DNA from: Anaerolineales bacterium
GTDB lineage: Bacteria; Chloroflexota; Anaerolineae; Anaerolineales; UBA6663
DNA: 45,513 nucleotides
Assembly (NCBI GenBank): GCA_020845955.1
Contig: JADLEU010000233.1
Span: 1 to 45,513, forward strand
Reading direction: 5' to 3'
Shown: positions 16,922-21,277 of the stretch, piece by piece
Layout: each line of letters starts with the position of its first letter
How positions within the stretch are numbered: position 1 is the stretch's first letter
Notes under the pieces: model-generated
What the model saw: only the letters and a program-made list of their open reading frames with translations
Told to the model about the DNA's origin: nothing
Database searches by the model: none
Position numbers and translations under genes: made by a program

Positions 16922-17647
16922 TCAGGCGGACGGCGGATTGCTTCTGCCGCGCCGGCTGAGGAAGAAAGCGCCAGCGCCGAGCGCGGCGGCCAACCCGCCG
17001 CAGCAGCACAGGCCGGCCAGGCCGATGAGGATGAGCTCGGTGCGGCCCAGGCCGCCGGTGCCCGGCAGCGTCACTAAGTCACTCCCACCGACGCCACTGA
17101 CCGCGCGTGCGTTGACCGCCTCGCCCGGCGACAGGTACCAGATCAGGGTTGTCTCGTCCGACTCGTCGGCGTTGTCGCTCCTGACCGTGCCGGGCATGGC
17201 GACCACCCAGCGAAACTCCACAGGCACATCACCCAACTCGCTGATCGATGCCTCCGAGAATTCGACGTCCACATCGTAGGTGAACTCGCTGGAGGTCAAG
17301 GCGAGCTGATTGACGTCGACGCCCTCCATGCCGTCATAAAGCTGGCGAAGCTCGTCTAGGCTTTGGAATGGCATCGTCACGATGCACCAGATCTCGTCGC
17401 CGCGCTCGACCACCGTCACGGGCGAGGCAATCGGCATGCCTTGGTCGCTCTGGAGATCCTCGCAGAACTGCTCGGGCGACATCCCCAGACCCTCCAGGCC
17501 CTGCTGGTCCAGCTGGTTGAAGCCGACCTCCGTCCGGAATTCGCCGCTGCCTCCTGGCTCAACCTCGGTGGCGAGGTGTAAGGTGCAGGCCGCCAGCAGC
17601 CAGGCCAGGGCCAGCAGCGCCGCCTGGCGGCGCCAAAGCGTATTCAT
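16922..17647 (-). CDS. LppM-like lipoprotein with C-terminal membrane anchor
   Basis: A 241-residue envelope protein. The N-terminus has a lipoprotein signal peptide ending in the lipobox L-L-A-A-C, so the mature protein would start at Cys21. The ectodomain (about 25-190) resembles LppM-domain lipoproteins of actinobacteria and Chloroflexota: a first strand L-H-L-A-T-E-V-E-P-G-G-S-G-E, a Cys pair (E-Q-F-C and E-I-W-C) that might form a disulfide, and V-E-F-R-W-V-V-A-M-P-G. A C-terminal helix near 205-228 is followed by S-R-R-G-R, a plausible stop-transfer. Double anchoring (lipid and helix) is typical of the group. It has a good promoter at 17710-17738 and GGAG before ATG 17647. Confidence 0.72.
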   Translation of the reverse strand: MNTLWRRQAALLALAWLLAACTLHLATEVEPGGSGEFRTEVGFNQLDQQGLEGLGMSPEQFCEDLQSDQGMPIASPVTVVERGDEIWCIVTMPFQSLDELRQLYDGMEGVDVNQLALTSSEFTYDVDVEFSEASISELGDVPVEFRWVVAMPGTVRSDNADESDETTLIWYLSPGEAVNARAVSGVGGSDLVTLPGTGGLGRTELILIGLAGLCCCGGLAAALGAGAFFLSRRGRSNPPSA

Positions 17648-17709
17648 GCGTCTCTCCTGGCGGGGCCGCGGCCAGCGGCCAGCGCGCTTGTTGGGAACCA
17701 GACTCGGTC

Positions 17710-17738
17710 AGTGTAAGCGAAACAGGCTGCGGCGGCAA
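17710..17738 (-). promoter_or_regulatory. Promoter of the LppM-like lipoprotein gene
   Basis: On the minus strand TTGCCG (17738-17733), a 17-bp spacer and TACACT (17715-17710). The expected start is near 17703, giving a leader of about 56 nt with GGAGAG before the ATG. It is divergent from the relA/spoT promoter 18 bp away and shares the same -35 sequence. Confidence 0.7.
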
Positions 17739-17755
17739 GCCTCGCGGCGTTACCC

Positions 17756-17784
17756 TTGCCGGCTAACCAGCCGCCCGGTATACT
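17756..17784 (+). promoter_or_regulatory. Promoter of the ppGpp synthetase/hydrolase gene
   Basis: TTGCCG (17756-17761), a 17-bp spacer and TATACT (17779-17784). The start codon GTG is at 17794, only nine bases after the -10 element, so the transcript would have at most about three untranslated bases. No Shine-Dalgarno can fit. Confidence 0.7.
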
Positions 17785-17793
17785 CACTTTGCC

Positions 17794-19935
17794 GTGAAAC
17801 TCGAAACGTTAACGCATGCGCTGCCGCCGGCCTTACCGCCGAGCGAGCGCGCGCAGATTGAAAAAGCCTACCAGGTGGCTGAGAAGGCTCATGCCGGGCA
17901 GAAGCGCGCCTCGGGTGATCCATATGTGCAGCACTGCCTAAACGTGGCCTATATCCTGGCCGAGCTGCACATGCCCACCGCCGTTATCGTGGCCGGCCTG
18001 CTGCACGATACGGTGGAAGACACCGTCTTGACCCTGGATGACATCCGCCAGGATTTCGGCGACGAGGTGGCGCAGCTGGTCGACGGCGTGACCAAACTGG
18101 CGCAGCTGCCGCGCGTATCCAAAGAGGGCAACACGCCCATCGACCGGCACACCGAAAGCCTGCGCAAGACGTTCCTGGCCATGAGCGACGACGTGCGCGT
18201 CGTGCTGATCAAGCTGGCCGACCGGCTGCACAATATGCGCACCCTGATGCACGTGCGCCCGGAAAAGCAGGCCCGGATCGCGCGGGAAACGCTCGAGATC
18301 TTCGCGCCGCTGGCCAACCGGCTGGGCATCTGGTCGCTGAAGTCCGAGCTCGAAGACTTGAGCTTCCGCTATACCAGCCCCGAACGCTACCGCGAAATCG
18401 CCAGCCAGATCGTCGAACACCAGGCCGACCGCGAGCGCACGATGGCGCACATCGTGTCGCACGTGCGCCGCGCCCTGCAGACGCACAACATCGACGCCGA
18501 CGTGTCGGGCCGGCCGAAGCACATCTATTCCATCTACAAGAAGATGGGGCGCAAGGAAGTCGGCTTTGACGAGGTCTACGATGTGCGCGCAGTGCGCATT
18601 ATCGTGCGCGATCAGCCAACCTGCTACTACGTGCTGGGCGTGATCCACAACTTGTGGCGGCCGATCCCAGGCCAGTTTGACGACTACATCGCCACGCCCA
18701 AGGATAACTTCTATCAGTCGCTGCACACCGCGGTCGTTTACGACGATGGTAAGACCCTGGAGGTGCAGATCCGCACGCCGGAAATGCACGAAAGCGCCGA
18801 ATACGGCATTGCCGCCCACTGGCGCTACAAGGAGGGCAGCAAACGCGACGAAGCCTACGAGAAACGCATCAAGTGGCTGCGCTCGCTGATGGATTGGCGG
18901 CAGGACCTGGCCGACGCCGGCGAGTTCGTCGATGCCATGAAACGCGATGTCTTCGAAGACCGCGTGTATGCCTTTACGCCGCACGGTGACATCATCGATC
19001 TGCCGGTCGGGGCGACGCCTATCGACTTCGCCTACCACGTGCACACCTCGGTGGGCGACCGCTGCCGTGGCGCCAAGGTCAACGGCAAGCTCGTCAGCCT
19101 GGAGTACCACCTCAAGACTGGCGACCAGGTGGAGATCCTGACGGCCAAGCGCGGCGGCCCCTCGCGCGACTGGCTAAACCCCGACCTTGGCCTGGTGCGC
19201 TCCCATCGGGCCAGCCAGAAGATCCGCCAGTTTTTCCGGCGGCAGGACCGGGAACAGATCATTACCCAAGGGCGCGAGGTCCTGGAGAAGGAGCTGAAGC
19301 GCCTGGGGGTAGAAGACTACAGCTACGAGAACGTGGGCCGCAAGTTCGGCTACGCTAAGCCGGAGGACCTGTTTTTCGCGTTGGGCGCCGGCGACATCCA
19401 CGGCCGGCAGATTGCCGCCCGCGTGCTGGAGGACGAACAGGCTGCCCAGGCCAAGCGCCAGGTGCCCACGACCGCGCCGCGCGGCGTGGTGCGCTCCGAC
19501 GAGATCGCAATTTTGGGCACCCGCGGCCTGCTGACGAACCTGGCGCGCTGCTGCAAACCAGTGCCGGGCGATCCGATCGTGGGCTATATCACCCGCGGGC
19601 GCGGCGCTACCATTCATCGCCGGGACTGCCCGAATGTGCTGTACCACAAGGAACCCGAGCGGTTGATCAAGGTCTCTTGGGGGCAGGCGCAGCAGACGTA
19701 CCCGGTGGCGGTGAGGATCACGGCTTATGACCGCGATGGCCTGATGAAGGACGTCTCGACTGTCGTGGCGGAAGAGCACATTAACATGGCCTCGCTCAGC
19801 GTCGCGACCAAGAACAGCATCGCCACGTTTGAGGTGACGATGGAGATCGCCGACGTTGAGGTGCTGGCCCGGGTGCTGGCGCGGATCGAACAGCTGCCCA
19901 ACGTCATCGAGGCCCGTCGCTGGAAGCCGGGTTAG
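17794..19935 (+). CDS. Bifunctional (p)ppGpp synthetase/hydrolase, RelA/SpoT family
   Basis: A 713-residue long RSH enzyme controlling the stringent response. The HD hydrolase domain is intact (H47 in V-Q-H-C-L-N, and H-D-T-V-E-D-T at 71-77), so hydrolysis is expected. The synthetase domain (about 225-350) has G-R-P-K-H-I-Y-S-I-Y-K-K-M and V-Q-I-R-T-P-E-M-H-E-S-A-E-Y-G-I-A-A-H-W. Its nucleotide loop reads P-K-D-N-F-Y-Q-S-L-H instead of the common P-K-x-N-G-Y-Q-S-L-H. TGS (about 388-450), a zinc-finger-like segment with R-C-C-K-P-V-P-G-D and a C-terminal ACT domain follow. The GTG start is supported by the conserved N-terminus and by the promoter placement. Confidence 0.95.
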   Translation: MKLETLTHALPPALPPSERAQIEKAYQVAEKAHAGQKRASGDPYVQHCLNVAYILAELHMPTAVIVAGLLHDTVEDTVLTLDDIRQDFGDEVAQLVDGVTKLAQLPRVSKEGNTPIDRHTESLRKTFLAMSDDVRVVLIKLADRLHNMRTLMHVRPEKQARIARETLEIFAPLANRLGIWSLKSELEDLSFRYTSPERYREIASQIVEHQADRERTMAHIVSHVRRALQTHNIDADVSGRPKHIYSIYKKMGRKEVGFDEVYDVRAVRIIVRDQPTCYYVLGVIHNLWRPIPGQFDDYIATPKDNFYQSLHTAVVYDDGKTLEVQIRTPEMHESAEYGIAAHWRYKEGSKRDEAYEKRIKWLRSLMDWRQDLADAGEFVDAMKRDVFEDRVYAFTPHGDIIDLPVGATPIDFAYHVHTSVGDRCRGAKVNGKLVSLEYHLKTGDQVEILTAKRGGPSRDWLNPDLGLVRSHRASQKIRQFFRRQDREQIITQGREVLEKELKRLGVEDYSYENVGRKFGYAKPEDLFFALGAGDIHGRQIAARVLEDEQAAQAKRQVPTTAPRGVVRSDEIAILGTRGLLTNLARCCKPVPGDPIVGYITRGRGATIHRRDCPNVLYHKEPERLIKVSWGQAQQTYPVAVRITAYDRDGLMKDVSTVVAEEHINMASLSVATKNSIATFEVTMEIADVEVLARVLARIEQLPNVIEARRWKPG

Positions 19936-19974: not shown

Positions 19975-19980
19975 TATAAT
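19975..19980 (+). promoter_or_regulatory. Possible -10 element of moeA
   Basis: A perfect TATAAT lies 22 bases before ATG 20003, implying a leader of about 16 nt without a Shine-Dalgarno. No convincing -35 is present at 16-18 bp (CGACGG at 17), so the call rests on the -10 alone. Confidence 0.35.
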
Positions 19981-20002
19981 GCGCCGGCTAACCAGATCAA
20001 GT

Positions 20003-21277
20003 ATGGATCCCTTGCAGCAGATGTTGAGCGTGGCCGAAGCCCGCGCTCGGATACTGGAACACTTCGAACCCCTCAGCACCGAGGTCGTGGCTCTGGGGGC
20101 TTGCCTGCGCCGGGTCTTGGGCAGCGCGGTCGTCGCGCGGCATGATTTGCCGCCCTTTGCCAACTCCAGCATGGACGGCTACGCCGTGCGGCGCCACGAC
20201 GCGGACGGCGCCGGGCCGGGACACGAGGTGCGCCTGCCAGTCAGCATGGACATTCCGGCCGGCAGCGGCCTGCCTGGGCCATTGACGCCGGGAACAGCCG
20301 CGCGCATCATGACGGGCGCGCCAATGCCGCCGGGGGCCGACGCCGTGGTGCCGGTCGAGGATACCAACGACCGCCGCGACCGGATGGGTGGGACGCCTGC
20401 CGAGGTGGCCATACGCGTTGCGCCGGCGCCGGGGCAGTATGTGCGCCCGGTGGGGCAGGATGTACGCGCCGGAGAGGTCGTGATGCCAACTGGCACGGTG
20501 CTGGGACCGGCCGCCCTCGGGGTGTTGGCAGCGCTCGGCTACTCGCAGGTGACGGTCTATCGCCAGCCTCGGGTGGCGCTCTTCTCGACCGGTGACGAGC
20601 TGCGCCAGGTTGGCGAGCCATTGGGGCCGGGTCAAATCCGAGACGTGAACAGCTACACCCTGGCAGCGGCGGCTGAGCACTATGGCGCGCAGGTGCTGCG
20701 CCTGGGCATCGTGCGTGACCGGCTCGAAGCCGTGCAGGCCGTTCTGGCCGCCGCGGCCGGACAGGGCGCGGACCTGGTGCTCTCGTCGGCCGGCGTTTCG
20801 GTCGGAGCGTATGACGTCGTCAAGACGGCAGTCGAGACGGCCGGAGGCCTGCAATTCTGGCGCGTGCGCATGCGGCCCGGCAAGCCGCTGGCGTTTGGCC
20901 GGGTGCATGGGGTGCCCTTCTTTGGGCTGCCCGGGAACCCCGTCTCGGCCCTGATGACGTTTGAGGTGTTCGTGCGCCCGTCGCTGCTGAAGCTGGCCGG
21001 ACGCCGGCATTGGGATAAGCTGGCGATCACGGCGGCCCTGGCAGAACCGGTGCGATCCGATGGCCGGGAAAGCTACCTGCGGGTCGTGGTCACGCGCCGC
21101 GGCGAGGCCTACGTGGCGCGGCCAGCCGGGGACCAGGGTTCGGCGGTGCTGTCGTCGCTGGTGCGCGCGAATGGGCTGTTGATTCTGCCTGAGGGCGTTA
21201 CCGAAGCCCGGGCTGGGGAACGCTTCACGGTATGGCTGGTGGACGGCGCTGATGCCGCACTCCTGGACGAGGGCTGA
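20003..21277 (+). CDS. moeA: Molybdopterin molybdenumtransferase
   Basis: A 424-residue enzyme that inserts molybdate into adenylylated molybdopterin in the last step of molybdenum cofactor synthesis. MoeA features appear in order: S-S-M-D-G-Y-A-V-R near residue 58, I-M-T-G-A-P-M-P-P-G-A-D-A-V-V-P-V-E-D-T, then F-S-T-G-D-E-L, S-S-A-G-V-S-V-G-A-Y-D, and F-G-L-P-G-N-P-V-S-A-L. The frame opens upstream inside the preceding gene, but ATG 20003 gives the family N-terminus. No other Moco gene is in the window. The DsbA-like gene begins almost directly after its stop. Confidence 0.95.
   Translation: MDPLQQMLSVAEARARILEHFEPLSTEVVALGACLRRVLGSAVVARHDLPPFANSSMDGYAVRRHDADGAGPGHEVRLPVSMDIPAGSGLPGPLTPGTAARIMTGAPMPPGADAVVPVEDTNDRRDRMGGTPAEVAIRVAPAPGQYVRPVGQDVRAGEVVMPTGTVLGPAALGVLAALGYSQVTVYRQPRVALFSTGDELRQVGEPLGPGQIRDVNSYTLAAAAEHYGAQVLRLGIVRDRLEAVQAVLAAAAGQGADLVLSSAGVSVGAYDVVKTAVETAGGLQFWRVRMRPGKPLAFGRVHGVPFFGLPGNPVSALMTFEVFVRPSLLKLAGRRHWDKLAITAALAEPVRSDGRESYLRVVVTRRGEAYVARPAGDQGSAVLSSLVRANGLLILPEGVTEARAGERFTVWLVDGADAALLDEG

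Follow-up and report, generated by a model that had tools for sequence, protein, structure and literature searches.

Zheng et al. 2011 (PMC3160421) described leaderless genes in which a TA-like (Pribnow) signal lies beside the start codon, and the excerpted text of that survey puts such genes at 4.7% on average for four of its 12 Chloroflexi genomes. In excerpts of other work, GTG serves poorly as a leaderless start in E. coli (PMC9031893) and is accepted as one in mycobacteria (PMC4633059). For the phylum itself, both Chloroflexi species of a further survey fall, in an excerpt of it, on the negative side of an axis linked to leaderless or S1-type signals (PMC5397173), and the Anaerolineae are placed in a group with the Shine-Dalgarno core AAAGGAGG in the excerpted part of PMC10783764. 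Among the matches listed in literature searches on leaderless genes, start sites in the phylum and the stringent response, the titles and abstract openings revealed no start-site map for the phylum and no leaderless RSH gene.

The locus considered here lies in the genome of an uncultured member of the Anaerolineales (GCA_020845955.1, contig JADLEU010000233.1); the window is the whole stretch of 45,513 nucleotides that was analysed. It carries a rel/spoT-type gene for which a sequence-only reading had proposed a leaderless transcript, and with it a possible feedback of the stringent response on translation.

The RSH gene and its upstream region

The following features of the window are used throughout.

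17648 to 17793, no strand: intergenic region between RSH and the divergent LppM-domain gene, 146 bp
17756 to 17761, plus strand: -35 element TTGCCG, from the consensus scan
17779 to 17784, plus strand: -10 element TATACT, from the consensus scan, common before the RSH gene across the order
17791 to 17794, plus strand: predicted transcription start, G17791 (3-nt leader) or G17794 (leader 0), from the -10 position
17794 to 19935, plus strand: rel/spoT-type long RSH, 713 aa, GTG start, with HD_4, RelA_SpoT, TGS and ACT_4 domains (TIGR00691)

Domain content supports a putative ppGpp synthesis/hydrolysis enzyme. The HD hydrolase, RelA_SpoT synthetase, TGS and ACT domains of a long RSH (RelA/SpoT) are all present, and the protein scores 759.8 bits against TIGR00691, for which the cut-off is 499.2. 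It also provides the single PF04607 match genome-wide (6.06 Mb, 431 contigs), and its earlier label as the main ppGpp enzyme is upheld by these results. The closest named relative found, at 81% protein identity, is the MAG Anaerolineales bacterium SJ819. The synthetase loop (P0001) reads QFDDYIA, which looks nearer the ExDD than the RxKD form of RSH enzymes.

The assignment of the start to GTG 17794 likewise held. An in-frame stop lies 10 codons 5' of it, with no further ATG, GTG or TTG in the frame between the two, and the next in-frame start is 27 codons downstream. Homology picked exactly this residue in 39 of 56 loci from the order, its own included.

The gene upstream of RSH is divergent (LppM domain, 16922-17647, minus strand), so the RSH promoter should sit inside the 146-bp intergenic region. 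The layout described there earlier is correct to the base: TTGCCG, a spacer of N17, TATACT ending at 17784, nine nucleotides (cactttgcc) and GTG at 17794. A scan with one consensus, which required at least 9 of 12 matches and has other promoter types outside its scope, found one sigma-70-like site between 17500 and 18100, namely this promoter, where shuffles averaged 0.1. TATACT resembles the -10 of E. coli sigma-S. In agreement with the earlier statement that a Shine-Dalgarno is lacking, no 4-mer of the GGAG/GAGG/AGGA type was flagged in the usual window before the GTG. A search of this assembly (6.06 Mb, 431 contigs) for a 16S gene, as a source for the genome's own anti-Shine-Dalgarno, gave no match.

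Several further observations concern the neighbouring genes. The divergent LppM-domain gene has AGGAG before its ATG and looks to have a leadered message. A promoter-like TTGCCG-N17-TACACT for this gene (17710-17738, minus strand) was matched by the RSH-promoter matrix described below, and its -35 is 17 bp from the RSH -35; RNA polymerases on the two divergent promoters might interfere with each other. On the 3' side of RSH, TATAAT precedes the ATG of a gene with MoeA domains by 22 nt (19975-20005), and this gene is therefore probably transcribed from a promoter of its own with a short leader. The 13-mer GCCGGCTAACCAG occurs both in the RSH promoter (17758-17770) and in the leader of the MoeA-domain gene (19983-19995). 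With at most one mismatch, it has two matches in the window against 0.06 expected, and 1 of 100 shuffles had two; among the other fetched loci it was found in none except L001 and L002, copies of the same locus.

Leader length and the placement of promoters genome-wide

It is quite likely, judging from the DNA, that a sigma-70-family promoter puts the 5' end of the RSH message 0-3 nt before the GTG, and that this message undergoes leaderless-type translation as part of a clade-wide class. TTGCCG-N17-TATACT, as a sigma-70-family promoter, would drive the single long RSH gene, and RNA polymerase would initiate at G17791 or G17794, so that 0-3 nt precede the GUG. The ribosome would then bind the 5'-terminal start codon, and translation would follow the leaderless route without Shine-Dalgarno pairing. 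RSH would thereby be one case of a leaderless class spanning this order, and no device special to the stringent response. From sequence we infer that this promoter is used, where exactly +1 lies, and that translation is of the leaderless type.

The placement of such promoters was surveyed in a sample of the same genome comprising 81 pieces (944,216 of 6.06 million bases, the window among them), in which a custom gene caller, with some uncertainty in its start assignments, called 737 genes, 341 of them operon-first-like. For 18 of these 341 genes a TATA[AC]T hexamer ends 6-10 nt upstream of the start codon, against 1.83 expected from gaps of 40-99 (Poisson 1.5e-12). The counts are 4, 3, 7, 3 and 1 genes at gaps of 6, 7, 8, 9 and 10 nt, with none at 0-5 or 11. 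A Shine-Dalgarno-like 4-mer, present in 130 of the 341 genes (36/341 in a control window), precedes one of the 18 leaderless candidates compared with 129 of the remaining 323 genes (Fisher 0.002). Among the 10 candidates covered by a Pfam scan, domains of ftsY, ligA, rarA (MgsA), mutY and starch synthase were included and two had no family at all; the class is therefore not one of stress genes.

Counts of bare motifs point in the same direction. This genome as a whole contains 95 copies of TATAAT-N6-9-ATG, compared with 3 of the backward pattern and 9 with N1-4; for TATACT-N6-9-ATG the corresponding figures are 39, 13 and 15. Over 21 genomes, summed by hand, the totals are 2066 for TATAAT-N6-9-ATG (backward control 338) and 786 for TATACT-N6-9-ATG (456). 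Some genomes show little or no excess of TATACT, as in G014 (38 vs 54) and G017 (36 vs 51), with counts also near control in G012 (70 vs 61) and G015 (73 vs 66). In a 292-kb sample of the closest relative, G001, the excess is weak, with the TATA[AC]T placement in 3 of 91 operon-first-like genes and 1.0 expected. On these predicted starts, near-leaderless placement is ordinary, being common to many genes in this genome and its relatives.

For RSH itself, both G17791 and G17794 fit the -10 position, and the start range of 17791-17794 given by the sequence-only reading stands. If +1 is G17791, TATACT ends at -7, the canonical distance, leaving the 3-nt leader GCC; a leader of exactly 0 requires initiation 10 nt past the hexamer, at G17794. 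Since G17791 is a purine, the 3-nt leader is favoured, and the message would strictly not be leaderless. The earlier proposal of a leaderless transcript is well supported by sequence as regards near-leaderless placement, and its strict form would hold only if +1 is G17794. A related alternative, to which we give some room while considering it unlikely, is that the promoter is real and the leader is about 3 nt or more, with a start at G17791 or earlier. Translation would then use another route free of Shine-Dalgarno pairing, strict leaderlessness not being the working feature. The purine at the canonical distance fits this alternative, as do 11 of the 56 order loci in which 14-23 nt separate TATACT from the start, implying leaders of about 8-17 nt, nine of them without a flagged Shine-Dalgarno. 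The sharp peak of gaps at 6-9 nt in the genome sample speaks against it and fits starts on or beside the codon. The 9-nt gap of RSH, at the outer edge of that peak, counts against the near-leaderless reading, as do the poor performance of GTG as a leaderless start in E. coli and the negative value of the two Chloroflexi species in PMC5397173; the acceptance of GTG in mycobacteria speaks for it.

Conservation across the order and against other genes

Three sets make up the 56 order loci: the 30 best homology matches, which include the RSH gene under study, 20 chosen from the other 26 places, and six further members. Left out were the matches in G008, G011, G024, G027 and G036, together with a second G057 piece. 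L197 and L199 were excluded as duplicates of genomes already represented, and six of 61 genomes gave no RSH match at the search threshold. The homology script returned no start for L203 and clearly wrong ones, with an extended N-terminus, for L005 and L007, which were kept in the order-wide counts with these script-picked starts, though GTG starts are more likely.

The nearest -10-like hexamer before RSH lies at 5-10 nt in 18 of the 56 loci, at 11-25 nt in 16 and at 26-80 nt in 16, and six have none within 80 nt. Dinucleotide shuffles (200 rounds) place a hexamer at 5-10 nt in a mean of 0.8 loci and a maximum of 4, figures that, like the Fisher values for the order below, overstate significance because the sequences are mutually related. 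At 5-25 nt the comparison is 34 loci against 2.4 by shuffle, and for TATACT alone 24 loci against a mean of 0.2 and a maximum of 2. A 0-3-nt leader is made likely by this excess near RSH, far above shuffle, together with the peak at 6-10 nt in the genome sample. A conserved Shine-Dalgarno before RSH, which the sequence-only reading had named as contrary evidence, was looked for in these relatives and not found: a 4-mer was flagged in 5 of the 56 loci, none of which has a -10-like hexamer at 12 nt or less.

It could also be argued that the -10 match is fortuitous and that RSH is read from another promoter or another start codon, since the scan used a single consensus and is blind to other promoter types. 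We regard this as very improbable. One site was found where 0.1 was expected, the divergent neighbour makes read-through unlikely, hexamers within 5-25 nt in 34/56 loci far exceed the 2.4 of chance, and the same start residue recurs in 39/56.

As for near-leaderless placement, its conservation is uneven. The earlier suggestion to check whether the spacing between -10 and start is kept has a divided answer. Four of the six loci in the gene's own family have a gap of 9 nt, G001 with its TACAAT -10 among them. In a sister genus, g5, with two genomes, TATACT is separated from the likely GTG by 36 and 39 nt, and across the order the gap ranges from 6 to >50 nt. The 9-nt gap also precedes an ftsY-like gene, both in this genome and in G001. 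In other orders and classes of the phylum, a -10-like hexamer lies at 5-12 nt from the RSH start in 5 of 17 loci.

To set RSH against other genes, 30 loci each of ligA, rarA and ftsY were processed by the same procedure; these were picked since they look leaderless here, as RSH was. A hexamer at 5-12 nt was found in 17/30 ligA, 21/30 rarA and 22/30 ftsY loci, or 60/90 pooled, compared with 18/50 for RSH (Fisher 0.0007). The predicted near-leaderless placement of RSH is real, yet less conserved than that of ftsY, ligA and rarA, and is not specially guarded.

These comparisons bear on the feedback that had been proposed, in which leaderlessness of RSH would be selected because (p)ppGpp favours its own enzyme's leaderless message, or because such a message sustains the enzyme when canonical initiation is shut down. 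There is some precedent in excerpts of the literature: according to a review citing a preprint, (p)ppGpp promotes the translation of leaderless mRNAs in E. coli exposed to oxidative stress (PMC9031893), and leaderless mRNAs increase upon starvation in M. tuberculosis (PMC3898074). Against this, the placement at RSH is less conserved than in the three other genes, and in other lineages the RSH promoter lies 14 to >50 nt from the start. As nothing in the comparison singles out RSH, a dedicated leaderless ppGpp feedback is unsupported by conservation, and we hold it to be improbable. A special role in the stringent response had been suggested by the sequence-only reading and finds no support here, leaderlessness being common to many genes and less conserved at RSH.

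Promoter type and comparison with known systems

What is conserved at RSH, and unusually constant, is by predicted promoters the TATACT spelling of the -10 together with a TTG -35. Within 60 nt of the start, TATACT and TATAAT stand at 28:1 for RSH, in the 29 of 56 loci that have either hexamer with enough upstream sequence, compared with 9:47 in the controls (Fisher 1e-13). Of the 29 RSH promoters, 18 have a TTG 16-18 nt upstream of the -10, the distance being exactly 17 in 11 of them; among the 56 control promoters, 2 have one. The control promoters favour G at -14, and TGn precedes the -10 in 13/23 ftsY, 7/13 rarA, 2/20 ligA and 0/29 RSH promoters.

The RSH type, TTG-N17/18-TATACT, differs in this way from the TATAAT promoters of the control genes, which lack a clear -35, and could be the mark of a particular sigma factor or a tuning of strength. 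A stronger version of this idea is that RSH of the order has its own promoter type, kept while the distance to the start drifts, and that a dedicated group-1/2-like sigma factor could set ppGpp enzyme levels, the leaderless message being a by-product in some lineages. We would put this forward as doubtful. PF00140 matches number one to five in each of 21 genomes, with four in this one.

Other sites of the RSH type were sought with a 30-position matrix built from 27 RSH promoters (its own left out) over the 944 kb at a threshold of 11 bits. It gave 45 matches of at least 11 bits; 16 of them precede a called gene by no more than 80 nt, and 13 are intragenic. The two best have no called downstream gene, with no tRNA at their loci, and no claim is made for an RSH-promoter regulon. 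Separately, ARAGORN calls a tmRNA gene at L126:1862-2249 with the tag AGVPPKTPRLGRKTKRLVAR. Its basic, non-AA ending is not known to be usual for such tags, and the tag or the tmRNA call itself may be wrong.

The sequence evidence suggests that many genes of the order, the stringent-response gene included, are probably translated without leaders. The gene-by-gene retention of the -10 spelling leads to a testable prediction on sigma-factor use.

Compared with long RelA/SpoT homologues (TIGR00691), the protein has the same HD, synthetase, TGS and ACT domains and exceeds the family cut-off; domain and family searches revealed no departure from the family. Compared with the leaderless genes of PMC3160421, in the excerpted text of that survey, the gene has the same -10-like hexamer just upstream of the start and likewise lacks a Shine-Dalgarno. 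The first T of the signal is about 12 bp upstream of the start there and 15 bp for RSH here, and the 4.7% given for Chloroflexi compares with 18/341 operon-first-like genes in this genome, although the denominators differ. In mycobacteria, as excerpts of PMC3898074 and PMC4633059 describe, leaderless mRNAs need no more than a 5'-terminal ATG or GTG, and the Shine-Dalgarno is absent in both cases. Those mRNAs, about a quarter of transcripts or genes, were mapped experimentally, whereas the present case is inferred from sequence. RSH also differs from the three other leaderless genes tested (ftsY, ligA and rarA) in its TATACT with a recognisable -35. It is a probable further example of the known leaderless genes with a TA-like signal, with a gene-specific TATACT that is worth following.
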